Under the pieces are notes generated by a model. The model was not told the origin of the DNA, did no database searches, and saw only the letters and a list, made by a program, of their open reading frames with translations. The position numbers and the translations under genes were made by a program. A stretch of 64,000 nucleotides of DNA from positions 61,006,501 to 61,070,500 of the forward strand of contig OY720349.1 in assembly GCA_963082975.1 (NCBI GenBank), in the 5' to 3' direction. Below are positions 1 to 64,000 of this stretch, in pieces (position 1 is the stretch's first letter; the number at the start of each line of letters is the position of its first letter). The DNA is from Labia minor. Taxonomy: Eukaryota; Arthropoda; Insecta; Dermaptera; Spongiphoridae.

Positions 1-1
1 T

Positions 2-349
2 AAATTAATAAGAAAATTTTATAGCAGAATTGTAAATAATGACGAAAATAGTTTGGTTTCGGGTGCGGCACTTCCACACGACCAGTATTATAAAAAAACT
101 CTAGAAACGGGATTTATTCCACCAGAAGCATTTCCTTTCTTAGATGCCCAGGGATATATACAAGACTCTAATAATATTCCTATAATTTATCATGTATATA
201 GAAATAGTAATGACAAAAGAATCAAATACGATCCCTTCCTAGACGGACAGGACCAGTATAGATTTTATAGATTTAGTCGTGCGATCTCGGATAGGGATAA
301 AAAAGAAAAATTAAATAATAAAAACTACTGGTGGTTTGATAATCAATAA
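2..349 (+). CDS. ORF2 C-terminal end of copy A (partial)
   Basis: The frame is open from base 2 to the TAA at 347-349. It encodes the last 115 residues of the 1,087-residue ORF2 found complete in copies B, C and F. This part lies downstream of the reverse transcriptase core and has no catalytic motif. It ends in the WWFDNQ tail shared by all copies. The start is missing only because the window begins here. The encoded end matches copy C (AALPHDQYYKKTLETG) rather than D or F (AALPND). Whether the whole gene is intact cannot be judged. Confidence 0.9.
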   Translation, partial: KLIRKFYSRIVNNDENSLVSGAALPHDQYYKKTLETGFIPPEAFPFLDAQGYIQDSNNIPIIYHVYRNSNDKRIKYDPFLDGQDQYRFYRFSRAISDRDKKEKLNNKNYWWFDNQ

Positions 350-894
350 GTTTACTAGCTGAAAAAGAGAGGAGGAGAAATATATCCGTTATTTGATTTC
401 TTTTATCTTTTCTTTATTGATTGAATCTTATTATTCATATTATAATCATTATAAAAATTGTAGCATAAGTTAATTTATTTATTTTCTTATTATATTAGAA
501 ATTATTAATAAACATTAAGTTAATTTTTTCTTTTTTTCTTTTTTTATATATCTTAATTTATGTAAAGGAGGGGAAAGGAAAAAAAAAAGAATTATAAAAA
601 TTCAAGTAGTGATAAGTTAAATAAAAAATATATTTTTTTTTCAGGTTTTTATAAAGCCAATTTTTCCTGAAAATTTTTTAAAAAATAAATTTATATAAAC
701 TTAATAATTATATATTAAAAACAATTACTTTCCTAGTGTATAAATAATTTAAGCATAATAACGTATATACATAAAATGTATAATGTTATTAATCAAATGT
801 AAATAATATGTAAATCCCAATGTGTTTGAGGATTTTGTTCATTGTAAATTTAACTGTAATTTGGCTCAATAAACACATTTTTCTAAAAAAAAAA
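350..894 (+). other. 3' UTR and poly(A) tail of copy A
   Basis: About 535 bases of AT-rich untranslated sequence follow the ORF2 stop. AATAAA at 868-873 lies about 11 bases before a 10-A tail at 885-894. This is the arrangement of a polyadenylated Pol II transcript copied back into DNA. No gene is visible here. Confidence 0.85.
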
Positions 895-990
895 GCACCG
901 GTTCTCGTCTGATCACCGAAGTTAAGCAACATCGAGCGCGGTTAGTACTTGGATGGGTGACCGCTTGGGAACACCGCGTGCCGTTGCCCT
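895..990 (+). pseudogene. 5S rRNA 3' remnant (nt 25-120) after copy A
   Basis: The remnant begins exactly after the poly(A) tail with gcaccggttctcgt, the duplicated target (5S nt 25-38), and runs to nt 120. It lacks nt 1-24, so it cannot make mature 5S RNA, but it keeps the internal control region (A box, intermediate element, C box). The spacer that follows belongs to the short class lacking the 74-bp segment. Confidence 0.92.
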
Positions 991-4016: not shown

Positions 4017-4054
4017 GGCAACGGCCATATCATGTTGAATGCACCGGTTCTCGT
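4017..4054 (+). pseudogene. 5S rRNA 5' half (nt 1-38) before copy B
   Basis: Nucleotides 1-38 of 5S are joined to copy B after TCTCGT; the C at 4055 could belong to either side. The fragment keeps its upstream TATA-like box but has lost the internal promoter to the far side of a 5.3-kb insertion. Its last 14 bases are repeated at 9405-9418. The ATG at 4032 (5S nt 16-18) opens ORF1 of copy B. Confidence 0.93.
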
Positions 4055-5648
4055 CAGTTCTAGTCGAGCATCGGTACGGTTAACATCTCCTTCCAGAGTG
4101 GAGACCCCGAGCCCGAACAATAACCCGCCTACGGATCCCAAGCCCGGCCTACCTGCCAAGCCCTTGGGCCAGCCCTTAGAATTGCCTCCGAGCAAAGCTA
4201 AAACTATCAGTGTGCAGACTAAAGGTCTTTCGAACAAGAAAGCTTTTGAGTTATTAATTAACTCAAAAAGATCCTTAACGAAAGCTGACGTGAAACGTCT
4301 AAGTGTTAGAATGTCGACAGGCAAGAAAAATTCTTCGAGTGGGGTTACAAGTAACTCAAAAATGCAGGCTCTCGAATACGAGAACAAAGAGTTAAGGAAA
4401 AAAATTCAAGAATTGGAAGAATTAATAAAAAAGAACATTTCATCGGCAACGACAACATTAGACGATGACGTCGAAATGGAAGAAGACGCGGACAATCAGA
4501 AGTGGACGGAGGTATCAAGGAAAAGAAAATCAGGAAAAGAATCTCTAGTGCCTCAATCCAATAAAAAGCTGCTGACCGGTGAAACAACAATAAATGAAAA
4601 TCCTAAAAAAATCACTACTCCGCAGGTGGAAAAGACCTCAGCAAAAGAGAAATGACCACCAATATCAATAAACAACGATATCGCGGTGCAAGTGATACAG
4701 ATTATGAAGACTTTTTCAAAACATTTTGAAATCAAACGAAGACCGGGTTCGAAAATGTCTAATATAATCACCCAATCAATGGATGATTATAAAAAAATAA
4801 TTGCCAAACTAAGAGAAAGGAAGTATGAATTTTTTACATTTACTCCAAAATGTGAAAAATATCAGACATTTCTTCTCAAAGGGTTGGCTCTCGAAACGAG
4901 TGAAGAAATCGTGAAAGAAGAATTAGATATTCACAAGAATATAAAATTCACCAAAATAGAGAGATTCGCAACAAAAAAATCCAAGGACGAAAAGAAAACT
5001 CTTCCCATGTTCTTAATCCAAATAAGCCCGGACAGCAAATTTAAAGACTTAAAAGAAATTAAAACTATATTTCATCAAAGGATTCACTGGGAAAACATAA
5101 AAAAACAACAAATGATGCAATGTTACAATTGCCAACGCATGGGTCACTCATCTCACTCATGCAATATGGAATCAAGATGTGTTAAATGTAACACAAAACA
5201 TGAAAAAGGTCAGTGCCAAATTACAATTGATACAGACAAATCAAAAATTTTCTGTGTCAATTGTAAAGAATACGGCCACCCGGCTTCATACAAGGGTTGT
5301 CCAGAAAAAAGAAAATTAATGGATAAAATAAAGAACAAGAAGAATGAAGAAAAAGACAATAAAATAAATAGGGTGAACCGAATTACCAAGATGGTTAATC
5401 CAGGTATGTCATTCGCGGCAGCGGTGAATAATAATAGTGTAAGTGATTCAAACAAAACATCAAATAGTGAAAGTGTTACAGTGCAAAGTGCTCCCCTTGA
5501 AAATAATGTTGAAAGCAGACTGCAGAGAATGGAAAATGCAATTCAACAACTTACAATCAGCATGCAAATAATTGCCAACTTACTACAACCTCAATGTATA
5601 CTGGTGAGTGCTCAACAGATAGGAAAATCCAAAAATCTTTTAAATTAA
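4032..5648 (+). pseudogene. ORF1 (gag-like) of copy B, interrupted by a stop
   Basis: The frame matches the 516-residue ORF1 of copies C and F but has a TGA at 4653-4655 where they have a Cys codon (TGT), giving a 207-residue product. It stays open in the same frame afterwards. A second change turns the normal TGA stop into TGT at the ORF2 start, so the frame runs on to 5648. The proline-rich N-terminal region, coiled-coil segment and three zinc knuckles (about 5118-5300) are recognisable. The 207-residue product would lack the knuckles. The ATG at 4032 is inside the 5S half. The coiled-coil region is E-like (LEELIKKNISSAT). Confidence 0.88.
4054..4088 (+). promoter_or_regulatory. Putative Pol II initiator plus DPE-like site, copy B
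   Basis: TCAGTT spans the 5S/element junction, with TC from 5S nt 38-39 and AGTT from the element. It fits the arthropod initiator TCA(G/T)T(C/T). ACATCT at +28 to +33 from the A fits the loose downstream-element consensus. Non-LTR elements of flies commonly use such internal promoters. This is motif-level evidence only, explained more fully under copy C. Confidence 0.35.
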
Positions 5649-8600
5649 ATTGCTTGTCATTAAATGTTAACTCGTTAGTTTCAATGCAAAAAAGAGCAAG
5701 CTTGCTTGCACTATTAGAAAAATATAGGCCGGATGTTCTTATGTTAAGTGAGACCAAACTTAATAAAATGCATCAAATGTCATTTGCTGAATACAACTTT
5801 ATTAGGACAGATAATCCAAATGAAAACAATGCAGGAGGAACAGCAATATTAATTAAAAAATCATTCAATTATAGGGAAATTCTTAATAGCAAAATATTAA
5901 ACAATAAAAAAGTAGAATCAACCATAATAAAAATTAAAATTGATAATAAAAAAAATCTTTTCCTAATATCAATATACTCCCCAAGTAAAAATGATAGTTT
6001 ATTTATTGAAGAGCTAGAAAATATTTTCAAAAATCTCAATTTAGACCAACAGGACAATTACTTTTATTTGGCCGGTGACTTGAATGCCAAACACGTAAGA
6101 TGGAATAATAGAAAAAATGACTCTAGAGGGAATAAACTTTGCAGATGGGTCGGCGATAATGAAATTCAATTCAAAATAAAGCTTCTTTGTTCAGAAATTC
6201 CTTCCTTCCCAAGAACAGGATCATTTATAGATCTGGTATTGATAGATACCAGATTAAAAGTAATTAATAAAAAAAATAATTATCAAGTTCCAGTGATTGA
6301 TTTCGATGGAGATCACTTAGGTCTAGTTTCTGAAGTGGAGCTTCCAGGCTTAGAAATAGAAAATCAAATAAATAAAAACAAATTTAACTTCAAAAAAACA
6401 AATTGGCAGCATTTCAAAAATTACCTTAACAAAACTTGTACAATTGACCTTTCGGAAAACCAAAATTTAAATAATCAAAAAATAGATGAATCAATAAATT
6501 TAATTGAACAACACATTCACTCTGCAATTCAAAAGGCAACACCCAAATTCAAAAGCTTCAACTCAATTGACAAATACGTCACTCATAAAATTAAAAAACT
6601 ACAAAAAGAAAAAAGTTTTCTAATATCACAAATTAATAAATTTTATAAAAATAATTTGAACCGTAACTCTGATGAATTTTTAATCCTGAAAGCTTTACTA
6701 CAAGAAATTAGAAAAAAAATAAATAAGGAAATCAGTCAATCAATTAACAATTATTGGAAAAACCAAATTGAAAATATACCAGAAAAAAGCTCATCAGAAA
6801 CACTTCCAAAAATTAATGGTATTTTCAGAAGGGGACAAAAAGGGAAGGCAATAAATACAAAAATAAAAATTCCAAACAATAGATTAGAAATTATAGAAAA
6901 GGCCGGAATTAAAAGGGAAAATCTAACAAAAGATGCAGAAGGTAACTTCGTAATTTACGACCCAATTGAAAAGCTTAATATAATGGGATTTCACTTTTCA
7001 ATGACCCATTTGCAAAATAAAAATTTAGGTACACATGGACTAACTAACATTATACAACATTGGACTGATAAACTAAAAACTGAAATACTGACTGACAAAC
7101 AAAACAATAAAAGAATAAACAAATTTTCAATTCATAACAAAGCTTCAGACCCTATTTTAAAAGACGAACAACTCTCACTGACAAATTTCCAAGAAGTAAA
7201 AAACATTTTTAAAAGACTAAATAACAAAACATCGACTGGAATTGACAAAATTCCAAATTGTGTTCTTAAGCATCTGCCTGATAAAGTAATTGTCTATTTC
7301 ACCATCATATTTAACAATGCCCTGAGCAATTTATATTTTCCTGAAAAATGGAAAAAGGCACTATTAATAGCAATCCCAAAAAAAGACAAAGACACATCCA
7401 TTTTAACAAATTTAAGGCCAATAAGTTTATTACCTTGCATTGGAAAGATATTTGAAATAATAATAAATAAAAGGTTGGTCTCAACATGTATAAATAAGAA
7501 TATCCTACCTGAAACTCAATTCGGTTTTAGATACAAGCATTCAACAATTAATGCTATTACAAAATTAAACTCGGACATCTGTTGGGCTCTCAACGGAGGT
7601 AATGTGGTTGGAGCGTGTCTGATTGATGTTGAAAAGGCATTCGACACAGTCTGGAGAGAAGGCCTAATTTACAAACTATTAAAGAAAGGTTTCGACAAAA
7701 ACTTAGTGAAAATGATATGGAGCATGATTGAAAACAGATCATTCGTAATGAGCGATAGAGGTTTGCAGTCCTCAATCAGCTTTCCGGTTGAAAACGGTTT
7801 ACAACAGGGTACGATAAACTCGCCAGTTCTATTTAATATATTTATAAGTGATATTCTAACAGCATATGAACTAAATGTTAAGAAAGGTCTGAATGCACTG
7901 GCATTTGCGGATGACCTGATCATTTATATTTCTGGGAAAAAAACAGATGAAATTCAACAAAAATTAGAATCTTTAGGCAACAAAATTTTTACTTTTTATA
8001 ATAATTGGAAATTAAAGATAAATTTAAATAAATGTGAAACAATATTATTTAGGCCAACTATTAACAATGGAAACAAAAATTTAAAAAAGAATTGGAAAAA
8101 TTTTCACATAAATATAAATGGTCAGGTCATTCCCCATAAAAACACAGTTCGTTATCTAGGCGTACATTTAGATGAAAGACTAATGTTCAAAAATCACATA
8201 AATATTCAATTAGCCAAGGCCAGAGCAGCATTCATGTCGTTAAAATGGCTATTCTATAGTCCGTATTTAAAGCCAAAAATAAAAATTCAATGCTATAGTT
8301 TATTTGTTAGACCAATTGTAACATACGGTTCAAGTATATGGTTCAACCAAAACGCATCAACAATGGAGAAAATTCGTGTGTTTGAAAGGAAATGCTTAAG
8401 AGCTTGTCTGGGGATGTGGAGGGCTCGAGAAACCAGCTATCAGAAATTTATAAATAATGAAACAATCTACAATCTGGCGAATTTAAATAGAATAGATTGC
8501 TTCATTATTAAATTAATAAGAAAATTTTACAGCAGAATTGTAAATAATGACGAAAATAGTTTGGTTTCGGGTGCGGCACTTCCACACGACCAGTATTATA

Positions 8601-8857
8601 AAAAAACTCTAGACACGGGATTTATTCCACCAGAAGCATTTCCTTTCTTAGATGCCCAGGGATATATACAAGACTCTAATAATATTCCTATAATTTATCA
8701 TGTATATAGAAATAGTAATGATAAAAGAATCAAATACGATCCCTTCCTAGACGGACAGGACCAGTATAGATTTTATAGATTTAGTCGTGCGATCCCGGAT
8801 AGGGATAAAAAAGAAAAGTTAAATAATAAAAACTACTGGTGGTTTGATAATCAATAG
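5594..8857 (+). CDS. ORF2 endonuclease / reverse transcriptase of copy B
   Basis: This is a complete 1,087-residue ORF2. The APE-type endonuclease (about residues 18-245) has NVN near residue 24, SETK with E53, GDLNAKH at 161-167 and GDH at 239-241. The reverse transcriptase (about 585-860) has LRPISLLP, the IDVEKAFD aspartates (678, 684), QQGTINSP and FADD (771-774). The C-terminal part has YLGVHLD and RPIVTYGSSIW, as in Jockey-group ORF2. I see no RNase H domain. The protein would nick the 5S target and copy the element RNA there. In this copy the start reads ATGTATACTGG because the overlapping ORF1 stop is mutated. Confidence 0.93.
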   Translation: MYTGECSTDRKIQKSFKLNCLSLNVNSLVSMQKRASLLALLEKYRPDVLMLSETKLNKMHQMSFAEYNFIRTDNPNENNAGGTAILIKKSFNYREILNSKILNNKKVESTIIKIKIDNKKNLFLISIYSPSKNDSLFIEELENIFKNLNLDQQDNYFYLAGDLNAKHVRWNNRKNDSRGNKLCRWVGDNEIQFKIKLLCSEIPSFPRTGSFIDLVLIDTRLKVINKKNNYQVPVIDFDGDHLGLVSEVELPGLEIENQINKNKFNFKKTNWQHFKNYLNKTCTIDLSENQNLNNQKIDESINLIEQHIHSAIQKATPKFKSFNSIDKYVTHKIKKLQKEKSFLISQINKFYKNNLNRNSDEFLILKALLQEIRKKINKEISQSINNYWKNQIENIPEKSSSETLPKINGIFRRGQKGKAINTKIKIPNNRLEIIEKAGIKRENLTKDAEGNFVIYDPIEKLNIMGFHFSMTHLQNKNLGTHGLTNIIQHWTDKLKTEILTDKQNNKRINKFSIHNKASDPILKDEQLSLTNFQEVKNIFKRLNNKTSTGIDKIPNCVLKHLPDKVIVYFTIIFNNALSNLYFPEKWKKALLIAIPKKDKDTSILTNLRPISLLPCIGKIFEIIINKRLVSTCINKNILPETQFGFRYKHSTINAITKLNSDICWALNGGNVVGACLIDVEKAFDTVWREGLIYKLLKKGFDKNLVKMIWSMIENRSFVMSDRGLQSSISFPVENGLQQGTINSPVLFNIFISDILTAYELNVKKGLNALAFADDLIIYISGKKTDEIQQKLESLGNKIFTFYNNWKLKINLNKCETILFRPTINNGNKNLKKNWKNFHININGQVIPHKNTVRYLGVHLDERLMFKNHINIQLAKARAAFMSLKWLFYSPYLKPKIKIQCYSLFVRPIVTYGSSIWFNQNASTMEKIRVFERKCLRACLGMWRARETSYQKFINNETIYNLANLNRIDCFIIKLIRKFYSRIVNNDENSLVSGAALPHDQYYKKTLDTGFIPPEAFPFLDAQGYIQDSNNIPIIYHVYRNSNDKRIKYDPFLDGQDQYRFYRFSRAIPDRDKKEKLNNKNYWWFDNQ

Positions 8858-9404
8858 GATTACTAAGTGAAAAAGAGAGGATGAGAAATGTATCCGTTAT
8901 TTGATTTCTTTTATCTTTTCTTTCTTGAGTGAATCTTGTTATTCATATTATATTCATTATAAAAATTGTAGCATAAGTTAATTTATTTCTTTTCTTATTA
9001 TATTAGCAATTATTAATAAACATTAAGTTAATTTTTTCTTTTTTCTTTTTTTATATATCTTAATTTATGTAAATGAGGGGAAAGGAAAAAAAAAAAAGAA
9101 TTATAAAAATTCAAATAGTGATAAGTTAAATAAAAAATATATTTTTTTTCAGGTTTTTATAAAGCCAATTTTTCCTGAAAATTTTTTAAAAAATAAGATT
9201 ATATAAACTTAATAATTATATATTAAAAACAATTACTTTCCTAGTGTATAAATAATTTAAGCATAATAACGTATATACATAAAATGTATAATGTTATAAA
9301 TCAAATGTAAATAATATGTAAATCCCAATGTGTTTGGGGATTTTGTTCATTGTAAATATAACTGTGATTTGGCTCAATAAACACATTTTTCTAAAAAAAA
9401 AAAA
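8858..9404 (+). other. 3' UTR and poly(A) tail of copy B
   Basis: About 535 AT-rich bases follow the TAG stop, with AATAAA at 9376-9381 and a 12-A tail at 9393-9404. The stop codon (TAG, followed by GATTACTAAG) differs from the TAA of the other copies, marking a separate sublineage. No gene is visible. Confidence 0.85.
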
Positions 9405-9500
9405 GCACCGGTTCTCGTCTGATCACCGAAGTTAAGCAACATCGAGCGCGGTTAGTACTTGGATGGGTGACCGCTTGGGAACACCGCGTGCCGTTGCCCT
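9405..9500 (+). pseudogene. 5S rRNA 3' remnant (nt 25-120) after copy B
   Basis: The remnant begins with the duplicated 14 bp (5S nt 25-38) and continues to nt 120 with the internal control region and downstream T-runs intact. Nucleotides 1-24 are missing. The following spacer carries the ACATTACATTTAG and CCAAAC variants. Confidence 0.92.
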
Positions 9501-18958: not shown

Positions 18959-19912
18959 TAAATTCTATTTTTGTTTTTTGGTTTTCCTTTTCACATTTTG
19001 ACTTTAAAATTTCATCCTATCTTTTTAATCAAGTCTCTTTATTATATTTCTATTTAATTCTAATATTATATTCATACAATTTGCAAATAATGAATAAATA
19101 AAATTACTCACATTTTCAAAAAATAATTCATAACATTACTTTTAGAAAACCTCGTTATTCATTTTATTAATTTGTAAATTACCTCTTCGACATAATCAAC
19201 ATCTTTATATGAAAATGTACTGAATTCTTTTGAGCCTGTTGGTATTTTTCTTTTAAGAATACAAAAATAAAACTTTCCCTAACATTATAGGAAATAGGAA
19301 ATACATTATAAATGAAACTATTCGAATATCTTTTTATTGATGTAACCAAACCCTCCCTCACTCACTCTGTTTTAGACAAAACACATTGAATGAATGAAAT
19401 AACAAGAAAATTTAACTATTTTATACTTTTATAATTGCAAACAAGAGTGGTTTCTATGGAAATATTATTAAGAATTGGAAAAAAAAAAAAAAAAAAAAAA
19501 AAAGAAAAATTATATCGCGAAAATAAATAAAAATATATACCCTAATAACTATTAAAATTCTTACCCATTGAACTTATCAAATGTCCATGTCATAAATTTT
19601 ATTCTAAACAATACAGACAGCTCCCGTCTACCATTTGTCAAATTAGTTATTATTTTACATCCTACTTTCGAAAAAAATAAACAAAAAGGAAAAAAAAAAT
19701 TCAAATAGCTATATTGCCTTTATTTTATGATTATTCTTTCTCTACCTCTCTTTGAGATGTCATAAATTGAAATTTGTTAAACAATAAAACAACCAAACCA
19801 CCACCACCAATACGTATATACGTATATATATTTGAAAATTGAACATTAATGTATCAATTTGTTCATTAATAATTGATTTTATTTAATAGATGGAGAGTAA
19901 TTTTAAATCAGT

Positions 19913-19950
19913 GGCAACGGCCATATCATGTTGAATGCACCGGTTCTCGT
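19913..19950 (+). pseudogene. 5S rRNA 5' half (nt 1-38) before copy C
   Basis: Nucleotides 1-38 end at CTCGT, then copy C begins. The duplicated 14 bp recur at 25282-25295. The ATG at 19928-19930 (5S nt 16-18, A at -3) is in frame with ORF1 and supplies its first eight codons together with the junction. Confidence 0.93.
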
Positions 19951-21478
19951 CAGTTCTAGTCGAGCATCGGTACGGTTAACATCTCCTTCCAGAGTGGAGA
20001 CCCCGAGCCCGAACAATAACCCGCCTACGGATCCCAAGCCCGGCCTACCTGCCAAGCCCTTGGGCCAGCCCTTAGAATTGCCTCCGAGCAAAGCTAAAAC
20101 TATCAGTGTGCAGACTAAAGGTCTTTCGAACAAGAAAGCTTTTGAGTTATTAATTAACTCAAAAAGATCCTTAACGAAAGCTGACGTGAAACGTCTAAGT
20201 GTTAGAATGTCGACAGGCAAGAAAAATTCTTCGAGTGGGGTTACAAGTAACTCCAAAATGCAGGCTCTCGAAAACGAGAACAAAGAGTTAAGAAAAAAAA
20301 TACAAGAATTGGAAGATTTAATCAAAAACCAAATTTCAACAGCAACAGTTGAAATGGAAGAAGATAACGCCGAGATTAATAATTGGACGGAGGTCACAAG
20401 AAAAAGAAAAGCAGGTAAAGAATCTTTAGTGCCTCAATCCAATAAAAAGCTGCTGACCGGTGAAACAACAATAAATGAAAATCCTAAAAAAATCACTACT
20501 CCGCAGGTGGAAAAGACATCAGCAAACGAAAAATGTCCACCAATATCAATCAACAACGATATCGCGGTCCAAGTGATACAGATTATGAAGACTTTTTCAA
20601 AACATTTTGAAATCAAACGAAGACCGGGTTCGAAAATGTCTAATATAATCACCCAATCAATGGATGATTATAAAAAAATAATTGCCAAACTAAGAGAAAG
20701 GAAGTATGAATTTTTTACATTTACTCCAAAATGTGAAAAATATCAGACATTTCTTCTCAAAGGGTTGGCTCTCGAAACGAGTGAAGAAATCGTGAAAGAA
20801 GAATTAGATATTCACAAGAATATAAAATTCACCAAAATAGAGAGATTCGCAACAAAAAAATCCAAGGACGAAAAGAAAACTCTTCCCATGTTCTTAATCC
20901 AAATAAGCCCGGACAGCAAATTTAAAGACTTAAAAGAAATTAAAACCATATTTCATCAAAGGATTCACTGGGAAAACATAAAAAAACAACAAATGATGCA
21001 ATGTTACAATTGCCAACGCATGGGTCACTCATCTCACTCATGCAATATGGAATCAAGATGTGTTAAATGTAACACAAAACATGAAAAAGGTCAGTGCCAA
21101 ATTACAATTGATGCAGACAAATCAAAAATTTTCTGTGTCAATTGTAAAGAATACGGCCACCCGGCTTCATACAAGGGTTGTCCAGAAAAAAGAAAATTAA
21201 TGGATAAAATAAAGAACAAGAAGAATGAAGAAAAAGACAATAAAATAAATAGGGTGAACCGAATTACCAAGATGGTTAATCCAGGTATGTCATTCGCCGC
21301 AGCGGTGAATAATAATAGTGAAAGTGATTTAAGCAAAGCATCAAATAGTGAAAGTGCTACAGTGCAAAGTGCTCCCCTCGAAAATAATGTTGAAAGCAGA
21401 CTGCAGAGAATGGAAAATGCAATTCAACAACTTACAATCAGCATGCAAATAATTGCCAACTTACTACAACCTCAATGA
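19928..21478 (+). CDS. ORF1 gag-like nucleic-acid-binding protein, copy C
   Basis: A 516-residue frame. Residues 1-8 come from 5S plus the junction; about 20-60 are Pro/Ser-rich; 111-136 are a charged probable coiled coil (MQALENENKELRKK). A PRE_C2HC-like region (TLPMFLIQISPD onward) precedes three zinc knuckles at 359-372 (CX2CX4HX4C), 378-390 (CX2CX3HX4C) and 403-418 (CX2CX4HX6C), the pattern typical of Jockey, I and R1 group ORF1 proteins. It would bind element RNA and form the retrotransposition particle with ORF2. The first ATG inside the element is codon 94 (20207), so translation could instead give 423 residues. The TGA stop overlaps the ORF2 ATG. Confidence 0.9.
   Translation: MLNAPVLVSSSRASVRLTSPSRVETPSPNNNPPTDPKPGLPAKPLGQPLELPPSKAKTISVQTKGLSNKKAFELLINSKRSLTKADVKRLSVRMSTGKKNSSSGVTSNSKMQALENENKELRKKIQELEDLIKNQISTATVEMEEDNAEINNWTEVTRKRKAGKESLVPQSNKKLLTGETTINENPKKITTPQVEKTSANEKCPPISINNDIAVQVIQIMKTFSKHFEIKRRPGSKMSNIITQSMDDYKKIIAKLRERKYEFFTFTPKCEKYQTFLLKGLALETSEEIVKEELDIHKNIKFTKIERFATKKSKDEKKTLPMFLIQISPDSKFKDLKEIKTIFHQRIHWENIKKQQMMQCYNCQRMGHSSHSCNMESRCVKCNTKHEKGQCQITIDADKSKIFCVNCKEYGHPASYKGCPEKRKLMDKIKNKKNEEKDNKINRVNRITKMVNPGMSFAAAVNNNSESDLSKASNSESATVQSAPLENNVESRLQRMENAIQQLTISMQIIANLLQPQ
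19950..19984 (+). promoter_or_regulatory. Putative Pol II initiator plus DPE-like site, copy C
   Basis: TCAGTT at 19950-19955 fits the arthropod initiator consensus; its TC comes from 5S nt 38-39 and the rest from the element. Taking the A at 19952 as +1, ACATCT at 19979-19984 sits at +28 to +33 and fits the degenerate downstream-element consensus. Drosophila Jockey-group elements use internal initiator/DPE promoters, so the arrangement is plausible. If transcription starts here, the 5S-derived ATG at 19928 would be left out of the RNA. The motifs are short and may occur by chance. Confidence 0.38.
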
Positions 21479-24400
21479 ATACTGGTGAGTGCTCAACAGA
21501 TAGAAAAATCCAAAAATCTTTTAAATTAAATTGCTTGTCATTAAATGTTAACTCGTTAGTTTCAATGCAAAAAAGAGCAAGCTTGCTTGCACTATTAGAA
21601 AAATATAGGCCGGATGTTCTTATGTTAAGTGAGACCAAACTTAATAAAATGCATCAAATGTCATTTGCTGAATACAACTTCATTAGGACAGATAATCCAA
21701 ATGAAAACAATGCAGGAGGAACAGCAATATTAATTAAAAAATCATTCAATTATAGGGAAATTCTTAATAGCAAAATATTAAACAATAAAAAAGTAGAATC
21801 AACCATAATAAAAATTAAAATTGATAATAAAAAAAATCTTTTCCTAATATCAATATACTCCCCAAGTAAAAATGATAGTTTATTTATTGAAGAGCTAGAA
21901 AATATTTTCAAAAATCTCAATTTAGACCAACAGGACAATTACTTTTATTTGGCCGGTGACTTGAATGCCAAACACGTAAGATGGAATAATAGAAAAAATG
22001 ACTCTAGAGGGAAAAAACTTTGCAGATGGGTCGGCGATAATGAAATTCAATTCAAAATAAAGCTACTTTGTTCAGAAATTCCTTCCTTCCCAAGAACAGG
22101 ATCATTTATAGATCTGGTATTGATAGATACCAGATTAAAAGTAATTAATAAAAAAAATAATTATCAAGTTCCAGTGATTGATTTCGATGGAGATCACTTA
22201 GGTCTAATTTCTGAAGTGGAGTTTTCAGGCTTAGAAATAGAAAACCAAACAAATAAAAACAAATTTAACTTCAAAAAAACAAATTGGCAGCATTTCAAAA
22301 ATTACCTTAACAAAACTTGTACAATTGACCTTTCGGAAAACCAAAATTTAAATAATCAAAAAATAGATGAATCAATAAATTTAATTGAACAACACATTCA
22401 CTCTGCAATTCAAAAGGCAACACCCAAATTCAAAAGTTTCAACTCAATTGACAAATACGTCACTCATAAAATTAAAAAACTACAAAAAGAAAAAAGTTTT
22501 CTAATATCACAAATTAATAAATTTTATAAAAATAATTTGAACCGTAACTCTGATGAATTTTTAATCCTGAAGGCTTTACTACGGGAAATTAGAAAAAAAA
22601 TAAATAACGAAATCAGTCAATCAATTAACAATTATTGGAAAAACCAAATTGAAAATATACCAGAAAAAAACTCATCAGAAACACTTCCAAAAATTAATGG
22701 TATTTTCAGAAGGGGACAAAAAGGGAAGGCAATAAATACAAACATAAAAATTCCAAACAATAGATTAGAAATTATAGAAAAGGCCGGAATTAAAAGGGAA
22801 AATCTAACAAAAGATGCAGAAGGTAACTTCGTAATTTACGACCCAATTGAAAAGCTTAATATAATGGGATTTCACTTTTCAATGACCCATTTGCAAAATA
22901 AAAATTTAGGTACACATGGACTAACTAACATTATACAACATTGGACTGATAAACTAAAAACTGAAATACTGACTGACAAACAAAACAATAAAAGAATAAA
23001 CAAATTTTCAATTCATAACAAAGCTTCAGACCCTATTTTAAAAGACGAACAACTCTCACTGACAAATTTCCAAGAAGTAAAAAACATTTTTAAAACATTA
23101 AATAACAAAACATCGACTGGAATTGACAAAATTCCAAATTGTGTTCTTAAGCATCTGCCTGATAAAGTAATTGTCTATTTCACCATCATATTTAACAATG
23201 CCCTGAGCAATTTATATTTTCCTGAAAAATGGAAAAAGGCACTATTAATAGCAATCCCAAAAAAAGACAAAGACACATCCATTTTAACAAATTTAAGGCC
23301 AATAAGTTTATTACCTTGCATTGGAAAGATATTTGAAATAATAATAAATAAAAGGTTGGTCTCAACATGTATAAATAAGAATATCCTACCTGAAACTCAA
23401 TTCGGTTTTAGATACAAGCATTCAACAATTAATGCTATTACAAAATTAAACTCGGACATCTGTTGGGCTCTCAACGGAGGTAATGTGGTTGGAGCGTGTC
23501 TGATTGATGTTGAAAAGGCATTCGACACAGTCTGGAGAGAAGGTCTAATCTACAAACTATTAAAGAAAGGTTTCGACAAAAACCTAGTGAAAATGATATG
23601 GAGCATGATTGAGAACAGATCATTCGTAATGAGCGATAGAGGTTTGCAGTCCTCAATCAGCTTTCCGGTTGAAAACGGTTTACAACAGGGTACGATAAAC
23701 TCGCCAGTTCTATTTAATATATTTATAAGTGATATTCTAACAGCATATGAACTAAATGTTAAGAAAGGTCTGAATGCACTGGCATTTGCGGATGACCTGA
23801 TCATTTATATTTCTGGGAAAAAAACAGATGAAATTCAACAAAAATTAGAATCTTTAGGCAACAAAATTTTTACTTTTTATAATAATTGGAAATTAAAGAT
23901 AAATTTAAATAAATGTGAAACAATATTATTTAGGCCAACTATTAATAATGGAAACAAAAATTTAAAAAAGAATTGGAAAAATTTTCACATAAATATAAAT
24001 GGTCAGGTCATTCCCCATAAAAACACTGTTCGTTATCTAGGCGTACATTTAGATGAAAGACTAATGTTCAAAAATCACATAAATATTCAATTAGCCAAGG
24101 CCAGAGCAGCATTCATGTCGTTAAAATGGCTATTCTATAGTCCGTATTTAAAGCCAAAAATAAAAATTCAATGCTATAGTCTATTTGTTAGACCAATTGT
24201 AACATACGGTTCAAGTATATGGTTCAACCAAAACGCATCAACAATGGAGAAAATTCGTGTGTTTGAAAGGAAATGCTTAAGAGCTTGTCTGGGGATGTGG
24301 AGGGCTCGAGAAACCAGCTATCAGAAATTTATAAATAATGAAACAATCTACAGTCTGGCGAATTTAAATAGAATAGATTGCTTCATTGTTAAATTAATAA

Positions 24401-24738
24401 GAAAATTTTATAGCAGAATTGTAAATAATGACGAAAATAGTTTGGTTTCGGGTGCGGCACTTCCACACGACCAGTATTATAAAAAAACTCTAGAAACGGG
24501 ATTTATTCCACCAGAAGCATTTCCTTTCTTAGATGCCCAGGGATATATACAAGACTCTAATAATATTCCTATAATTTATCATGTATATAGAAATAGTAAT
24601 GACAAAAGAATCAAATACGATCCCTTCCTAGACGGACAGGACCAGTATAGATTTTATAGATTTAGTCGTGCGATCTCGGATAGGGATAAAAAAGAAAAAT
24701 TAAATAATAAAAACTACTGGTGGTTTGATAATCAATAA
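21475..24738 (+). CDS. ORF2 endonuclease / reverse transcriptase, copy C
   Basis: This is a 1,087-residue protein starting in ATGA, one base back from the ORF1 frame. Termination-reinitiation is the likely way it is translated, as reported for some other non-LTR elements with overlapping ORFs. It has an APE endonuclease (E53, GDLN at 161-164, GDH at 239-241) and a reverse transcriptase (D678 in IDVEKAFD; FADD at 771-774). Its C-terminal region has a Jockey-like LGVHLD segment. All motifs are intact. Copy-specific residues include LLREIRKKINNEI near 369-380 and NIKIP near 423. The endonuclease presumably determines the 5S target. Confidence 0.94.
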   Translation: MNTGECSTDRKIQKSFKLNCLSLNVNSLVSMQKRASLLALLEKYRPDVLMLSETKLNKMHQMSFAEYNFIRTDNPNENNAGGTAILIKKSFNYREILNSKILNNKKVESTIIKIKIDNKKNLFLISIYSPSKNDSLFIEELENIFKNLNLDQQDNYFYLAGDLNAKHVRWNNRKNDSRGKKLCRWVGDNEIQFKIKLLCSEIPSFPRTGSFIDLVLIDTRLKVINKKNNYQVPVIDFDGDHLGLISEVEFSGLEIENQTNKNKFNFKKTNWQHFKNYLNKTCTIDLSENQNLNNQKIDESINLIEQHIHSAIQKATPKFKSFNSIDKYVTHKIKKLQKEKSFLISQINKFYKNNLNRNSDEFLILKALLREIRKKINNEISQSINNYWKNQIENIPEKNSSETLPKINGIFRRGQKGKAINTNIKIPNNRLEIIEKAGIKRENLTKDAEGNFVIYDPIEKLNIMGFHFSMTHLQNKNLGTHGLTNIIQHWTDKLKTEILTDKQNNKRINKFSIHNKASDPILKDEQLSLTNFQEVKNIFKTLNNKTSTGIDKIPNCVLKHLPDKVIVYFTIIFNNALSNLYFPEKWKKALLIAIPKKDKDTSILTNLRPISLLPCIGKIFEIIINKRLVSTCINKNILPETQFGFRYKHSTINAITKLNSDICWALNGGNVVGACLIDVEKAFDTVWREGLIYKLLKKGFDKNLVKMIWSMIENRSFVMSDRGLQSSISFPVENGLQQGTINSPVLFNIFISDILTAYELNVKKGLNALAFADDLIIYISGKKTDEIQQKLESLGNKIFTFYNNWKLKINLNKCETILFRPTINNGNKNLKKNWKNFHININGQVIPHKNTVRYLGVHLDERLMFKNHINIQLAKARAAFMSLKWLFYSPYLKPKIKIQCYSLFVRPIVTYGSSIWFNQNASTMEKIRVFERKCLRACLGMWRARETSYQKFINNETIYSLANLNRIDCFIVKLIRKFYSRIVNNDENSLVSGAALPHDQYYKKTLETGFIPPEAFPFLDAQGYIQDSNNIPIIYHVYRNSNDKRIKYDPFLDGQDQYRFYRFSRAISDRDKKEKLNNKNYWWFDNQ

Positions 24739-25281
24739 GTTTACTAGCTGAAAAAGAGAGGAGGAGAAATATATCCGTTATTTGATTTCTTTTATCTTTT
24801 CTTTATTGATTGAATCTTATTATTCATATTATAATCATTATAAAAATTGTAGCATAAGTTAATTTATTTATTTTCTTATTATATTAGAAATTATTAATAA
24901 ACATTAAGTTAATTTTTTCTTTTTTTCTTTTTTTATATATCTTAATTTATGTAAAGGAGGGGAAAGGAAAAAAAAAAGAATTATAAAAATTCAAGTAGTG
25001 ATAAGTTAAATAAAAAATATATTTTTTTTCAGGTTTTTATAAAGCCAATTTTTCCTGAAAATTTTTTAAAAAATAAATTTATATAAACTTAATAATTATA
25101 TATTAAAAACAATTACTTTCCTAGTGTATAAATAATTTAAGCATAATAACGTATATACATAAAATGTATAATGTTATTAATCAAATGTAAATAATATGTA
25201 AATCCCAATGTGTTTGAGGATTTTGTTCATTGTAAATTTAACTGTAATTTGGCTCAATAAACACATTTTTCTAAAAAAAAA
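24739..25281 (+). other. 3' UTR and poly(A) tail of copy C
   Basis: About 534 bases begin GTTTACTAGCTG and match copy A except for one T-run length. They end with AATAAA and 9 A. No gene is visible. Confidence 0.85.
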
Positions 25282-28525: not shown

Positions 28526-28537
28526 AAACTTAATAAA

Positions 28538-31500
28538 ATGCATCAAATGTCATTTGCTGAATACAACTTCATTAGGACAGATAATCCAAATGAAAACAAT
28601 GCAGGAGGAACAGCAATATTAATTAAAAAATCATTCAATTATAGGGAAATTCTTAATAGCAAAATATTAAACAATAAAAAAGTAGAATCAACCATAATAA
28701 AAATTAAAATTGATAATAAAAAAAATCTTTTCCTAATATCAATATACTCCCCAAGTAAAAATGATAGTTTATTTATTGAAGAGCTAGAAAATATTTTCAA
28801 AAATCTCAATTTAGACCAACAGGACAATTACTTTTATTTGGCCGGTGACTTGAATGCCAAACACGTAAGATGGAATAATAGAAAAAATGACTCTAGAGGG
28901 AATAAACTTTGCAGATGGGTCGGCGATAATGAAATTCAATTCAAAATAAAGCTACTTTGTTCAGAAATTCCTTCCTTCCCAAGAACAGGATCATTTATAG
29001 ATCTGGTATTGATAGATACCAGATTAAAAGTAATTAATAAAAAAAATAATTATCAAGTTCCAGTGATTGATTTCGATGGAGATCACTTAGGTCTAATTTC
29101 TGAAGTGGAGTTTTCAGGCTTAGAAATAGAAAACCAAACAAATAAAAACAAATTTAACTTCAAAAAAACAAATTGGCAGCATTTCAAAAATTACCTTAAC
29201 AAAACTTGTACAATTGACCTTTCGGAAAACCAAAATTTAAATAATCAAAAAATAGATGAATCAATAAATTTAATTGAACAACACATTCACTCTGCAATTC
29301 AAAAGGCAACACCCAAATTCAAAAGTTTCAACTCACTTGACAAATACGTCACTCATAAAATTAAAAAACTACAAAAAGAAAAAAGTTTTCTAATATCACA
29401 AATTAATAAATTTTATAAAAATAATTGGAACCGTAACTCTGATGAATTTTTAATCCTGAAAGCTTTACTACAAGAAATTAGAAAAAAAATAAATAAGGAA
29501 ATCAGTCAATCAATTAACAATTATTGGAAAAACCAAATTGAAAATATACCAGAAAAAAGCTCATCAGAAACACTTCCAAAAATTAATGGTATTTTCAGAA
29601 GGGGACAAAAAGGGAAGGCAATAAATACAAAAATAAAAATTCCAAACAATAGATTAGAAATTATAGAAAAGGCCGGAATTAAAAGGGAAAATCTAACAAA
29701 AGATGCAGAAGGTAACTTCGTAATTTACGACCCAATTGAAAAGCTTAATATAATGGGATTTCACTTTTCAATGACCCATTTGCAAAATAAAAATTTAGGT
29801 ACACATGGACTAACTAACATTATACAACATTGGACTGATAAACTAAAAACTGAAATACTGACTGACAAACAAAACAATAAAAGAATAAACAAATTTTCAA
29901 TTCATAACAAAGCTACAGACCCTATTTTAAAAGACGAACAACTCTCACTGACAAATTTCCAAGAAGTAAAAAACATTTTTAAAACATTAAATAACAAAAC
30001 ATCGACTGGAATTGACAAAATTCCAAATTGTGTTCTTAAGCATCTGCCTGATAAAGTAATTGTCTATTTCACCATCATATTTAACAATGCCCTGAGCAAT
30101 TTATATTTTCCTGAAAAATGGAAAAAGGCACTATTAATAGCAATCCCAAAAAAAGACAAAGACACATCCATTTTAACAAATTTAAGGCCAATAAGTTTAT
30201 TACCTTGCATTGGAAAGATATTTGAAATAATAATAAATAAAAGGTTGGTCTCAACATGTATAAATAAGAATATCCTACCTGAAACTCAATTCGGTTTTAG
30301 ATACAAGCATTCAACAATTAATGCTATTACAAAATTAAACTCGGACATCTGTTGGGCTCTCAACGGAGGTAATGTGGTTGGAGCGTGTCTGATTGATGTT
30401 GAAAAGGCATTCGACACAGTCTGGAGAGAAGGCCTAATTTACAAACTATTAAAGAAAGGTTTCGACAAAAACTTAGTGAAAATGATATGGAGCATGATTG
30501 AAAACAGATCATTCGTAATGAGCGATAGAGGTTTGCAGTCCTCAATCAGCTTTCCGGTTGAAAACGGTTTACAACAGGGTACGATAAACTCGCCAGTTCT
30601 ATTTAATATATTTATAAGTGATATTCTAACAGCATATGAACTAAATGTTAAGAAAGGTCTGAATGCACTGGCATTTGCGGATGACCTGATCATTTATATT
30701 TCTGGGAAAAAAACAGATGAAATTCAACAAAAATTAGAATCTTTAGGCAACAAAATTTTTACTTTTTATAATAATTGGAAATTAAAGATAAATTTAAATA
30801 AATGTGAAACAATATTATTTAGGCCAACTATTAATAATGGAAACAAAAATTTAAAAAAGAATTGGAAAAATTTTCACATAAGTATAAATGGTCAGGTCAT
30901 TCCCCATAAAAACACAGTTCGTTATCTAGGCGTACATTTAGATGAAAGACTAATGTTCAAAAATCACATAAATATTCAATTAGCCAAGGCCAGAGCAGCA
31001 TTCATGTCGTTAAAATGGCTATTCTATAGTCCGTATTTAAAGCCAAAAATAAAAATTCAATGCTATAGTCTATTTGTTAGACCAATTGTAACATACGGTT
31101 CAAGTATATGGTTCAACCAAAACGCATCAACAATGGAGAAAATTCGTGTGTTTGAAAGGAAATGCTTAAGAGCTTGTTTGGGGATATGGAGGGCTCGAGA
31201 AACCAGCTATCAGAAATTTATAAATAATGAAACAATCTACAATCTGGCGAATTTAAATAGAATAGATTGCTTCATTATTAAATTAATAAGAAAATTTTAT
31301 AGCAGAATTATAAATAATGACGAAAATAGTTTGGTTTCGGGTGCGGCACTTCCAAACGACCCGTATTATAAAGAAACTCTAGAAACGGGATTTATTCCAC
31401 CAGAAGCATTTCCTTTCTTAGATGCCCAGGGATATATACAAGACTCTAATAATATTCCTATAATTTATCATGTATATAGAAATAGTAATGATAAAAGAAT

Positions 31501-31627
31501 CAAATACGATCCCTTCCTAGACGGACAGGACCAGTATAGATTTTATAGATTTAGTCGTGCGATCTCGGATAGGGATAAAAAAGAAAAGTTAAATAATAAA
31601 AACTACTGGTGGTTTGATAATCAATAA
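28538..31627 (+). pseudogene. ORF2 fragment of copy D (endonuclease N-terminus lost)
   Basis: The element part is open from codon 55 of ORF2; the first in-frame ATG is codon 59 at 28538. All of ORF1 and the first 54 ORF2 residues are absent, including the NVN motif and the catalytic Glu of SETK, so endonuclease activity is not expected. The reverse transcriptase motifs (IDVEKAFD, FADD) and C-terminal region are intact to the stop at 31625-31627. The frame also stays open upstream through 5S sequence without an ATG, which is coincidental. Copy-specific residues include NNWNRN and PNDPYYKE. Confidence 0.9.
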
Positions 31628-32178
31628 GTTTACTAGTTGAAAAAGTGAGGATGAGAAATGTATCCGTTATTTGATTTCTTTTATCTTTTCTTTCTTGAGT
31701 GAATCTTATTATTCATATTATAATCATTATAAAAATTGTAGCATAAGTTAATTTATTTCTTTTCTTATTATATTAGCAATTATTAATAAACATTAAGTTA
31801 ATTTTTTTCTTTTTTCTTTTTTTATATATCTTAATTTATGTAAATGAGGGGAAAGGAAAAAAAAAAAAAGAATTATAAAAATTCAAGTAGTGATAAGTTA
31901 AATAAAAAATATATTTTTTTTCAGGTTTTTATAAAGCCAATTTTTCCTGAAAATTTTTTTAAAAAATAAGATTATATAAACTTAATAATTATATATTAAA
32001 AACAATTACTTTCCTAGTGTACAAATAATTTAAGCATAATAACGTATATACATAAAATGTATAATGTTATAAATCAAATGTAAATAATATGTAAATCCCA
32101 ATGTGTTTGGGGATTTGGTTCTTTGTAAATATAACTGTAATTTGGCTCAATAAACACATTTTTCTAAAAAAAAAAAAA
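31628..32178 (+). other. 3' UTR and poly(A) tail of copy D
   Basis: About 538 bases begin GTTTACTAGTTGAAAAAGTGAGG, the same opening as copy F and different from A, B, C and E. Ends with AATAAA and 13 A. No gene is visible. Confidence 0.85.
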
Positions 32179-34346: not shown

Positions 34347-35889
34347 CCTATTCGAGCATCGGTACTGTTAACATCTCTTTCCAGAGTGGAGACCCCGAGC
34401 CCGAACAATAACCCGCCTACGGATCCCAAGCCCGGCTTACCTGCCAAGCCCTTGGGCCAGCCCTTAGAATTGCCTCCGAGCAAACTTAAATCTATCAGTG
34501 TGCAGACTAAAGGTCTTTCGAACAAGAAAGCTTTTGAGTTATTAATTAACTCAAAAAGAACTTTAACGAAAGCAGACGTGAAACGTCTAAGTGATAAAAT
34601 GTCTACGAGCAAGAAAAATTCTTCGAGTGGGGTTACAAGTAACTCAAAAATGCAGGCTCTCGAAAACGAGAACAAAGAGTTAAGGAAAAAAATTCAAGAA
34701 TTGGAAGAATTAATAAAAAAGAACATTTCATCGGCAACGGCAACATTAGTCGATGACGTCGAAATGGAAGAAGACGCGGACAATCAGAAGTGGACGGAGG
34801 TATCAAGGAAAAGAAAATCAGGAAAAGAATCTCTATTGCCTCAATCAAATAAAAAGATTCTGACCTGTGAATCAAACATAAACGAAAATACTAAAATCAC
34901 TACCCCGCAGGTGGATAAGACCTCAGTAAAAGAGAAATGTCCACCAATATCAATCAACAATGATATTGCGGTCCAAGTGATCCAAATTATGAAGACCTAT
35001 TCAAAAAATTTTGAAATAAAAAGAAGACCTGGTTCGAAGATGTCAAATATAATCACCCAATCAATGGATGATTATAAAAAAACAATTGCCATACTAAGAG
35101 AAAGGAAGTATGAATTTTTTACATTTACTCCTAAATGTGAAAAATATCAGACATTTCTTCTCAAAGGGTTGGCTCTCGAAACAAGTGAAGAAATTGTGAA
35201 AGAAGAATTATGTATTCACAAGAATATAAAATTCACCAAAATAGAGAGATTCGCAACAAAAAAATCCAAGGACGAAAAGAAAACTCTTCCCATATTCTTA
35301 ATCCAAATAAGCCCGGACAGCAAATTTAAAGACCTAAAAGAAATTAAAACTATATTTCATCAAAGGATTCACTGGGAAAACATAAAAAAACAACAAATGA
35401 TGCAATGTTACAATTGCCAACGCATGGGTCACTCATCTCACTCATGCAATATGGAATCAAGATGTGTTAAATGTAACACAAAACACGAAAAAGGTCAGTG
35501 CCAAATTACAATTGATACAGACAAATCAAAAATTTTCTGTGTCAATTGTAAAGAATACGGCCACCCAGCTTCATACAAGGGTTGTCCAGAAAAAAGAAAA
35601 TTAACGGAAAAAATAAAGACACAGAAGAATGAAGAAAGAAGAAAAAGACAATAAAATAAAAAGAGTGAATAGAATTACCAAGATGGTTAATCCAGGTATG
35701 TCATTCGCCGCAGCGGTGAATAATAATAGTGAAAGTGATTCAAGCAAAGCATCAAATAGTGAAAGTGCTACAGTGCAAAGTGCTCCCCTCGAAAATAATC
35801 TTGAAAGCAGACTGCAGAGAATGGAAAATGCAATTCAACAACTTACAGTCAGCATGCAAATAATTGCCAACTTACTACAACCTCAATGA
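34347..35889 (+). pseudogene. ORF1 (gag-like) of copy E, frameshifted
   Basis: The element-encoded frame is open from the junction, with the first ATG at 34599 (equivalent to codon 94 of copy C). It runs through the coiled coil and all three zinc knuckles to a stop at 35654. A 7-bp insertion near 35634-35640 (a GAAGAAA repeat) shifts the frame. The original C-terminal frame resumes as an open stretch ending in the TGA at 35887-35889. Differences from C in the N-terminal 93 codons are mostly amino-acid changing. The 5S ATG is not in frame here. Confidence 0.87.
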
Positions 35890-38800
35890 ATACTGGTGAG
35901 TGCTCAACAGATAGAAAAATTCAAAAATCTTTTAAATTAAATTGCTTGTCATTAAACGTTAACTCGTTAGTTTCAATGCAAAAAAGGGCAAGCTTGCTTG
36001 CCCTATTAGAAAAATATAGGCCGGATGTTCTTATGTTAAGCGAGACCAAACTTAATAAAATGCATCAAATGTCATTTGCTGAATACAACTTCATTAGGAC
36101 AGATAATCCAAATGAAAACAATGCAGGAGGAACAGCAATATTAATTAAAAAATCATTCAAATATAGGGAAATTCTTAATAGCAAAATATTAAACAATAAA
36201 AAAGTAGAATCAACCATAATAAAAATTAAAATTGATAATAAAAAAAATCTTTTCCTAATATCAATATACTCCCCAAGTAAAAATGATAGTTTATTTATTG
36301 AAGAGCTAGAAAATATTTTCAAAAATCTCAATTTAGATCAACAGGACAATTACTTTTATTTGGCGGGTGACTTGAATGCCAAACACGAAAGATGGAATAA
36401 TAGAAAAAATGACTCTAGAGGGAATAAACTTTGCAGATGGGTCGGCGATAACGAAATTCAATTCAAAATAAAGCTACTTTGTTCAGAAATTCCTTCCTTC
36501 CCAAGAACAGGATCATTTATAGATTTGATATTGATAGATACCAGATTAAAAGTAATTAATAAAAAAAATAATTATCAGGTTCCAGTGATTGATTTCGATG
36601 GAGATCACTTAGGTCTAATTTCTGAAGTAGAGTTTTCAGGCTTGGAAATAGAATATCAAACAAATAAAAACAAATTTAACTTCAAAAAAACAAATTGGCA
36701 GCATTTCAAAAATTACCTTAACAAAACTTGTACAATTGACCTTTCGGAAAACCAAAATTTAAATAATCAAAAAATAGATGAATCAATAAATTTAATTGAA
36801 CAACACATTCACTCTGCAATTCAAAAGGCAACACCCAAATTCAAAAGCTTCAACTCAATTGACAAATACGTCACTCATAAAATTAAAAAACTACAAAAAG
36901 AAAAAAGTTTTCTAATATCACAAATTAATAAATTTTATAAAAATAATTTGAACCGTAACTCTGATGAATTTTTAATCCTGAAAGCTTTACTACAAGAAAT
37001 TAGAAAAAAAATAAATAAGGAAATCAGTCAATCAATTAACAATTATTGGAAAAACCAAATTGAAAATATACCAGAAAAAAACTCATCAGAAACACTTCCA
37101 AAAATTAATGGTATTTTCAGAAGGGGACAAAAAGGGAAGGCAATAAATACAAAAATAAAAATTCCAAACAATAAATTAGAAATTATAGAAAAGGCCGGAA
37201 TTAAAAGGGAAAATCTAACAAAAGATGCAGAAGGTAACTTCGTAATTTACGACCCAATTGAAAAGCTTAATATAATGGGATTTCACTTTTCAATGACCCA
37301 TTTGCAAAATAAAAATTTAGGTACACATGGACTAACTAACATTATACAACATTGGACTGATAAACTAAAAACTGAAATACTGACTGACAAACAAAACAAT
37401 AAAAGAATAAACAAATTTTCAATTCATAACAAAGCTTCAGACCCTATTTTAAAAGATGAACAACTCTCACTGACAAATTTCCAAGAAGTAAAAAACATTT
37501 TTAAAAGACTAAATAACAAAACATCGACTGGAATTGACAAAATTCCAAATTGTGTTCTTAAGCATCTGCCTGATAAAGTAATTGTCTATTTCACCATCAT
37601 ATTTAACAATGCCCTGAGCAATTTATATTTTCCTGAAAAATGGAAAAAGGCACTATTAATAGCAATCCCAAAAAAAGACAAAGACACATCCATTTTAACA
37701 AATTTAAGGCCAATAAGTTTATTACCTTGCATTGGAAAGATATTTGAAATAATAATAAATAAAAGGTTGGTCTCAACATGTATAAATAAGAATATCCTAC
37801 CTGAAACTCAATTCGGTTTTAGATACAAGCATTCAACAATTAATGCTATTACAAAATTAAATTCGGACATCTGTTGGGCTCTCAACGGGGGTAATGTGGT
37901 TGGAGCGTGTCTGATTGATGTTGAAAAGGCATTCGACACAGTCTGGAGAGAAGGTCTAATCTACAAACTATTAAAGAAAGGTTTCGACAAAAACCTAGTG
38001 AAAATGATATGGAGCATGATTGAGAACAGATCATTCGTAATGAGCGATAGAGGTTTGCAGTCCTCAATCAGCTTTCCGGTTGTAAACGGTTTACAACAGG
38101 GTACAATAAACTCGCCAGTCCTATTTAATATATTTATAAGTGATATTCTAACAGCATATGAACTAAATGTTAAGAAAGGTCTGAATGCACTGGCATTTGC
38201 GGATGACCTGATCATTTATATTTCTGGGAAAAAAAACAGATGAAATTCAACAAAAATTAGAATCTTTAGGCAACAAAATTTTTACTTTTTATAATAATTG
38301 GAAATTAAAGATAAATTTAAATAAATGTGAAACAATATTATTTAGGCCAACTATTAATAATGGAAACAAAAATTTAAAAAAGAATTGGAAAAATTTTCAC
38401 ATAAGTATAAATGGTCAGGTCATTCCCCATAAAAACACAGTTCGTTATCTAGGCGTACATTTAGATGAAAGACTAATGTTCAAAAATCACATAAATATTC
38501 AATTAGCCAAGGCCAGAGCAGCATTCATGTCGTTAAAATGGCTATTCTATAGTCCGTATTTAAAGCCAAAAATAAAAATTCAATGCTATAGTTTATTTGT
38601 TAGACCAATTGTAACATACGGTTCAAGTATATGGTTCAACCAAAACGCATCAACAATGGAGAAAATTCGTGTGTTTGAAAGGAAATGCTTAAGAGCTTGT
38701 CTGGGGATGTGGAGGGCTCGAGAAACCAGCTATCAGAAATTTATAAATAATGAAACAATCTACAATCTGGCGAATTTAAATAGAATAGATTGCTTCATTA

Positions 38801-63878: not shown

Positions 63879-64000
63879 GTTTACTAGTTGAAAAAGTGAG
63901 GATGAGAAATGTATCCGTTATTTGATTTCTTTTATCTTTTCTTTCTTGAGTGAATCTTATTATTCATATTATAATCATTATAAAAATTGTAGCATAAGTT
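63879..64000 (+). other. 3' UTR of copy F (partial)
   Basis: The first 122 bases of the 3' UTR, beginning GTTTACTAGTTGAAAAAGTGAGG as in copy D. The polyadenylation signal and tail lie beyond the window. Confidence 0.85.

Follow-up and report, generated by a model that had tools for sequence, protein, structure and literature searches.

The window analysed here is a stretch of 64,000 nucleotides of the Labia minor genome (C6:61006501-61070500 of a 604-Mb assembly) that lies inside an array of 5S ribosomal RNA (rRNA) genes, several of which are split by copies of a long interspersed nuclear element (LINE). Direct comparison with the 5S sequence identified 31 intact and 6 split genes in the window, and all 5S matches were located on the + strand (Rfam). 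The units follow one another at a spacing of mostly 1,071-1,079 bp, with a few at about 1,000 bp; among the units inspected, the shorter ones (window ~10458-17763) are devoid of a spacer stretch of about 75 bp that is present in the units of ~1,076 bp. A pattern of 27 bases that covers nucleotides (nt) 25-51 of the 5S gene has 128 exact matches genome-wide, a count that genes with mismatches escape, and among the 100 matches listed 94 fall in the C6 array and 6 outside it, on C1 (3) and C4 (3).

The six elements, which split 6 of the 37 genes of the window, have the same + orientation as the 5S genes. Copy A is clipped by the window edge and contributes its 3' part (the end of open reading frame (ORF) 2, the 3' untranslated region (UTR) and poly(A); 1..894), followed by 5S nt 25-119 at 895..989. 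Copy B, delimited by its junctions and ORF frames, is a full-length element with a poly(A) end (4056..9404) that is preceded by 5S nt 1-39 (4017..4055), of which nt 25-38/39 form the first copy of the target duplication, and followed by nt 25-119 (9405..9499). Its ORF2 frame spans 5513-8857 and its ORF1 frame (4011-4655 and 4656-5648) is broken by an in-frame stop at 4653-4655; ORF1 is open in copies C and F. The full-length copy C (19952..25281), flanked by 5S nt 1-39 at 19913-19951 and nt 25-119 at 25282-25376, has an ORF1 frame that runs from stop to stop and starts within the 5S gene (19907..21478) and an ORF2 frame at 21394..24738. Copy D, truncated at its 5' end within ORF2 (28526..32178), is enclosed by 5S nt 1-38 (28488-28525) and nt 25-119 (32179-32273). 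Copy E (34348..39707) is full-length, has broken ORF frames (34269-35654, 35805-38243 and 38212-39150) and first bases unlike those of B, C and F, and lies between a 5S head at 34309-34347 and nt 25-119 at 39708-39802. The full-length copy F (59092..64000) follows 5S nt 1-39 (59053-59091) and extends beyond the window end.

ORF2, as annotated in copy C, combines an APE-type endonuclease with a reverse transcriptase. An RNase H family was found neither among the Pfam matches of ORF2 up to an E value of 10 nor among those listed up to E 1 for the ORF2 of a sister family described below, and no transposase family occurs among the Pfam matches of the element. To our knowledge, an APE endonuclease and a reverse transcriptase without RNase H make up the ORF2 of Jockey elements, and this arrangement was found in both families. 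The best PDB matches of ORF2, R2 (1.2e-19) and L1 (2.8e-19), are near-equal and such scores give no placement. ORF1 of copy C contains a coiled-coil-like stretch and three CCHC knuckles, a number also found in the sister family; immediately before the knuckles, PRE_C2HC is matched weakly (E 0.0075, below the Pfam cut-off; sister E 0.06). When the ORF1 core was modelled with AlphaFold from one sequence, the result was too unreliable (mean pLDDT 44.7) to judge the presence of an RNA recognition motif (RRM). According to the available part of a survey of the Jockey lineage, every element carries three CCHC knuckles together with a single RRM or a pair of them, and both kinds of domain are shared with the groups L1 and I (PMC4120745). 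The ORF1 layout is thus compatible with Jockey, though not unique to it, and the element likely belongs to the Jockey lineage. Both families start with TCAGTT, and both have RCATCT at +28 to +33 (window 4055-4090; near 578-615 in L055, a sister copy). These motifs resemble what we take to be the initiator and the downstream element of Jockey-type RNA polymerase II promoters, so that the element is probably transcribed from a promoter of its own.

The insertion site in 5S genes

All visible junctions of the window fall at one place of the 5S gene. In copy D the 5' junction follows nt 38 and in the four other visible cases nt 39, the five 3' junctions (895, 9405, 25282, 32179 and 39708) restart at nt 25 directly after the A run, and the target duplication comprises nt 25-38 (14-15 bp). 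The C at nt 39 can be assigned either to the target or to the first base of the element; two copies outside the array (L002 and L004) start with a C that is absent from the target. Copy D sits at the unchanged site in spite of its truncation. A preliminary description of the window had reported these ten junctions, the constant orientation, the length of the duplication and the site of copy D, and each of these observations was recovered when the junctions were compared directly. Across the wider array, the 23 copies that were fetched have a single orientation and share the same 5' junction in 22/23 and the same 3' junction in 22/23 cases. These 23 scored elements occupy about one fifth of the at most 122 exactly matching 5S genes of the array.

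Such uniformity could also arise if one or a few 5S insertions had been amplified by unequal crossing-over and gene conversion, with little active targeting of 5S genes. 5S arrays are homogenised, some of the copies cluster tightly, and the copies L009, L015, L016 and L019 share an unusual tail in which a T breaks the A run (A9-T-A6), which points to duplication or conversion among array units. Against this stand 16 distinct combinations of 5' junction and tail among the 23 copies, with certain tails common to several of them, the occurrence of a truncated copy and of differing first bases at one site, a divergence that reaches 3.7%, and the spread of off-array copies over several array clades. 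Not every array copy represents an independent insertion, the shared tails being as expected from array duplication or gene conversion. Amplification may add copies and cannot account for the tRNA-like sites described below; as the sole explanation it is ruled out by the 16 combinations, and as the principal one we consider it very unlikely.

Insertion sites outside the array

Copies of the window family were sought genome-wide with ORF2 and with the 3' UTR. The ORF2 search, in which 41 of 6,164 candidates were scored, identified 30 copies of the family at 96-100% identity (23 in the array and 7 outside) and 11 copies of the sister family at 58% identity. With the 3' UTR as a query, 40 of 108 candidates were scored, of which 23 lie in the array and 17 elsewhere, and several of the off-array copies are full-length with an open ORF2. 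No 5S sequence was found at the junctions of these 17 copies, the 3' flanks of which were all inspected. Instead, 15 of the 17 sites are tRNA-like by the criterion that a strict tRNA B-box motif (GWTCRANNC) follows in sense orientation 28-52 bp beyond the junction. One copy (L025) splits a tRNA-Ala (AGC) gene after about nt 22 with a duplication of 14 bp, as deduced from the joined flanks and a cloverleaf read manually. Off-array duplications measure 13-15 bp in all six copies with both flanks read, resembling those in 5S genes.

A strictly 5S-specific LINE whose off-array copies are rare strays would fit the 22 of 22 visible 3' junctions of the fetched array copies at nt 25 and the fact that the array holds the biggest single group of copies (23 of the 40 scored). 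It is hard to reconcile with the 17 of 40 that lie elsewhere, 15 of them in one type of target, and with a sister family for which 29 of 44 sites are of the tRNA-like type and no site lies in a 5S gene. Strict specificity is ruled out by the off-array share of the scored copies, and we regard such an account as extremely improbable. The preliminary claim that the family always inserts at one 5S position, which a genome-wide search with scoring of flanks was to examine, is accordingly borne out for the array and fails beyond it, where tRNA-like and other non-5S sites are occupied, in several cases by full-length copies, which is part of what the description had named as a refutation.

The sister family shares 58% ORF2 identity with the window family. 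Its 44 sites read (40 from a 3' UTR query, for which 40 of 150 candidates were scored, and 11 from the ORF2 search, with 7 common to both) include the 29 with a strict B box, and no 5S sequence was found among the 44 flanks. One sister insertion with both flanks known (L055, with L031) entered the same nucleotide of a short interspersed nuclear element (SINE) as L014 of the window family.

Nearly the same elements occupy both kinds of target. The tRNA-like insertions L005 (C6) and L008 (C9) differ at 0 of 5,328 bp from the 5S insertions L006 and L007, and L014 differs at 0 of 3,881 positions from the array copies L015 and L016. Only 3 differences in 5,312 separate L002 from the array copy L001, and 4 in 3,704 separate L025 from L006. 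In a tree of 30 copies, which is midpoint-rooted and has some weak nodes, the off-array copies are scattered among the array clades. These near-identities point to at least four lines of the window family that entered both target types recently.

Several controls were set against the association with the B box. In a first set of 28 off-array flanks, 23 windows near the junction contained the motif, against 0/175 distant windows and 0/28 near windows on the opposite strand; in the next 32 flanks the respective values were 20/32, 0/32 and 1/32. L056, whose junction was not recognised in the set of 32 flanks, enters only the count of 61 sites, for which the flank start of L039 was placed manually. 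With both families pooled, the strict B box occurs at 44 of these 61 off-array sites. At the sites of an unrelated control LINE family, picked by a search for its reverse transcriptase family, it was found at 0/17 and 0/2 (Fisher P = 7e-9 for 44/61 vs 0/19, with the 61 sites treated as independent). Four other LINE families were fetched, two of which were scored for the motif (4 flanks) and the remainder judged by eye. In two LINE families other than the window family and its sister (L089-L092 and L097-L113) the B box was present at 0 of 21 scored flanks. The tails of these last copies are of the GAAGAAGAA type. Chance proximity to tRNA-like DNA is ruled out by the distant windows (0/175 and 0/32) and by the unrelated LINE (0/19).

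Several observations weigh against a preference for tRNA-like targets or narrow the ground on which it stands. Only part of the 3' UTR candidates of either family was scored (see above), and the 61 sites, when grouped on the basis of their first 60 nt, reduce to 44 clusters, so that some are possibly duplicates. Among the sister sites, 15 of 44 do not carry the strict motif; by eye, about half of these seem to be decayed tRNA heads and about half seem not to be tRNA-like. As for the two exceptions of the window family, the L002 site has a degenerate tRNA-like B box, similar to that of the sister site L052, and the L034 site is plain AT-rich DNA. Of the six joined empty sites, ARAGORN recognised none at its default threshold and two at a relaxed one; of these two calls the tRNA-Ala of L025 is credited and the other is an implausible intron-bearing tRNA-His. 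Most off-array targets are SINE heads, which are not known to be transcribed. L004 (36 differences in 5,316) and L030 (24 in 1,756) are without a near-identical array copy. Finally, a copy of another LINE family (L096) was found inside a SINE body in antisense orientation, and the same SINE is a target of L014 and L030.

Nick position and possible means of target recognition

From target identity, orientation, duplications, poly(A) tails, the unchanged sites of 5'-truncated copies and the elements shared between targets, all of which are read directly in the sequence, the LINE lineage very probably targets genes with RNA polymerase III (Pol III)-type internal promoters and their relics, the 5S gene being one target among others. 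5S rRNA genes are entered between nt 24 and 25, and tRNA genes and tRNA-derived SINE heads in the sense direction in or next to the A box/D arm, with duplications of 13-15 bp. The observation at the core of the preliminary description holds; its interpretation was partly right and too narrow.

In tRNA numbering, the first nick falls at about nt 8 to 23 (manual reading of L004, L005, L008, L014 and L025), compared with 24/25 in the 5S gene. The distance from the junction to the B box is 28-52, with a median of 38, at the off-array sites that carry the motif. The 5S gene has an A box of its own, which we take to lie at about nt 50-64. In tRNA-like units the nick thus falls within the A box or next to it; in the 5S gene it lies at a comparable depth, well ahead of the 5S A box. 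At 51 of 61 off-array sites a G is the first base other than A to follow the tail, and 34 of the 61 have the motif GG[TC][AT][AG] no more than 18 nt from the junction, compared with 24 of 573 distant windows; the 5S gene carries GGTT at the corresponding position.

In a possible sequence of events, the ribonucleoprotein of the element would arrive at a Pol III-type gene, and the ORF2 endonuclease would nick the bottom strand immediately ahead of a G of the top strand. Target-primed reverse transcription would then copy the poly(A) end from this first nick, and a second cut 13-15 bp off would create the duplication. Specificity would act at the step of the first nick, because the 5'-truncated copies D, L014 and L025 keep unchanged sites.

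We attach even chances to the proposal that a contact with TFIIIC or TFIIIB, parts of the Pol III initiation machinery, guides the nick. It is suggested because the nick wanders by about 20 bp in tRNA-like targets without a fixed motif and because the 5S gene is cut about 25 bp in, though its A box lies further inside. An explanation that departs from this one in mechanism only is that the endonuclease reads A-box/D-loop-like DNA directly (a G a few bases before GG-T/C-A/T), with no protein tether required, and that the 5S gene happens to bear such a sequence at nt 25-33, GCACCGGTT. The enrichment of the GG motif near the junction, the preference for a G as the first base and the entry of both families at the identical nucleotide of one SINE speak for direct reading, and Dada transposons, which use the tRNA A box and 5S genes, have been argued to read primary sequence (PMC8869645). 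It is opposed by the 27 of 61 sites without the motif and by the variable distances of the nick from the motif (0 to more than 10 nt) and from the B box (28 to 52). Decayed SINEs can retain either feature, and the motif distances do not decide between a tether and direct reading. We consider direct reading possible, though less likely than not.

Taken together with the contact with Pol III factors proposed above, a broader picture can tentatively be drawn, to which we give somewhat less than even confidence: a group of animal LINEs of the Jockey lineage may find its sites via the Pol III initiation complex and insert within the transcribed unit, with one family filling the 5S array and its sister staying on tRNA-like genes. 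Since one pool of elements uses two unlike targets, sequence reading and protein tethering become directly testable against each other.

Comparison with known target-specific retroelements

The preliminary description had suggested a 5S-specific lineage not described before. Jockey-like LINEs of about 5 kb that interrupt 5S arrays were, however, published in 2024 for Tribolium freemani (PMC11202950), which limits that suggestion. In the accessible text of that report, the majority of the elements are associated with 5S genes and some lie outside, and 32 of 113 5S copies are without the first 30 bp, solely alongside the element (PMC11202950). Such copies fit a 3' junction near nt 25; they would be the 3' halves of occupied genes. 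The same text gives neither insertion position nor target duplication nor tRNA-like targets, and the word tRNA is absent from its main text (PMC11202950). No Jockey-type LINE in tRNA A boxes or tRNA-like targets was found in the literature searched, with Repbase, Dfam and most subscription papers outside the search.

Three other systems resemble the present one in part. Among them, Mutsu belongs to the Tx1 clade. It is likewise a LINE inserted in 5S genes, those of zebrafish (PMC3706591); the present element differs from it in that it also occupies tRNA-like sites and, with 17 of 40 scored copies off-array, is not confined to 5S genes. TRE5-A of Dictyostelium, an L1-clade LINE, uses both tRNA and 5S genes and its ORF1 protein contacts TFIIIB; as described, TRE5 elements insert 40-54 bp upstream of tRNA genes and 37-41 bp upstream of 5S genes (PMC5911963). 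Unlike TRE5-A, the present element inserts inside 5S genes and tRNA-like units and not at a set upstream distance. Dada DNA transposons interrupt tRNA genes, either in the A box (nt 8-13) or in the anticodon, and some families also enter 5S genes; they differ by a DDE transposase and duplications of 6 bp (PMC8869645). In contrast to Dada, the present retrotransposon encodes an endonuclease and a reverse transcriptase, generates duplications of 13-15 bp and enters at a wandering position.

Target-specific LINE families have been assigned to three groups, early-branched, Tx1 and R1, in a paper from 2015 (PMC4640811). A lineage of Jockey type that targets Pol III genes would be one more such group, and if a tether to the Pol III complex were involved, targeting through protein contact would have arisen in animals in parallel to TRE5-A. 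The occupancy of the Labia minor array indicates that a single element family can split about one fifth of a 5S array. Retroelements that target Pol III genes are known as such; what sets the present lineage apart is its double target and its probable membership of the Jockey lineage.

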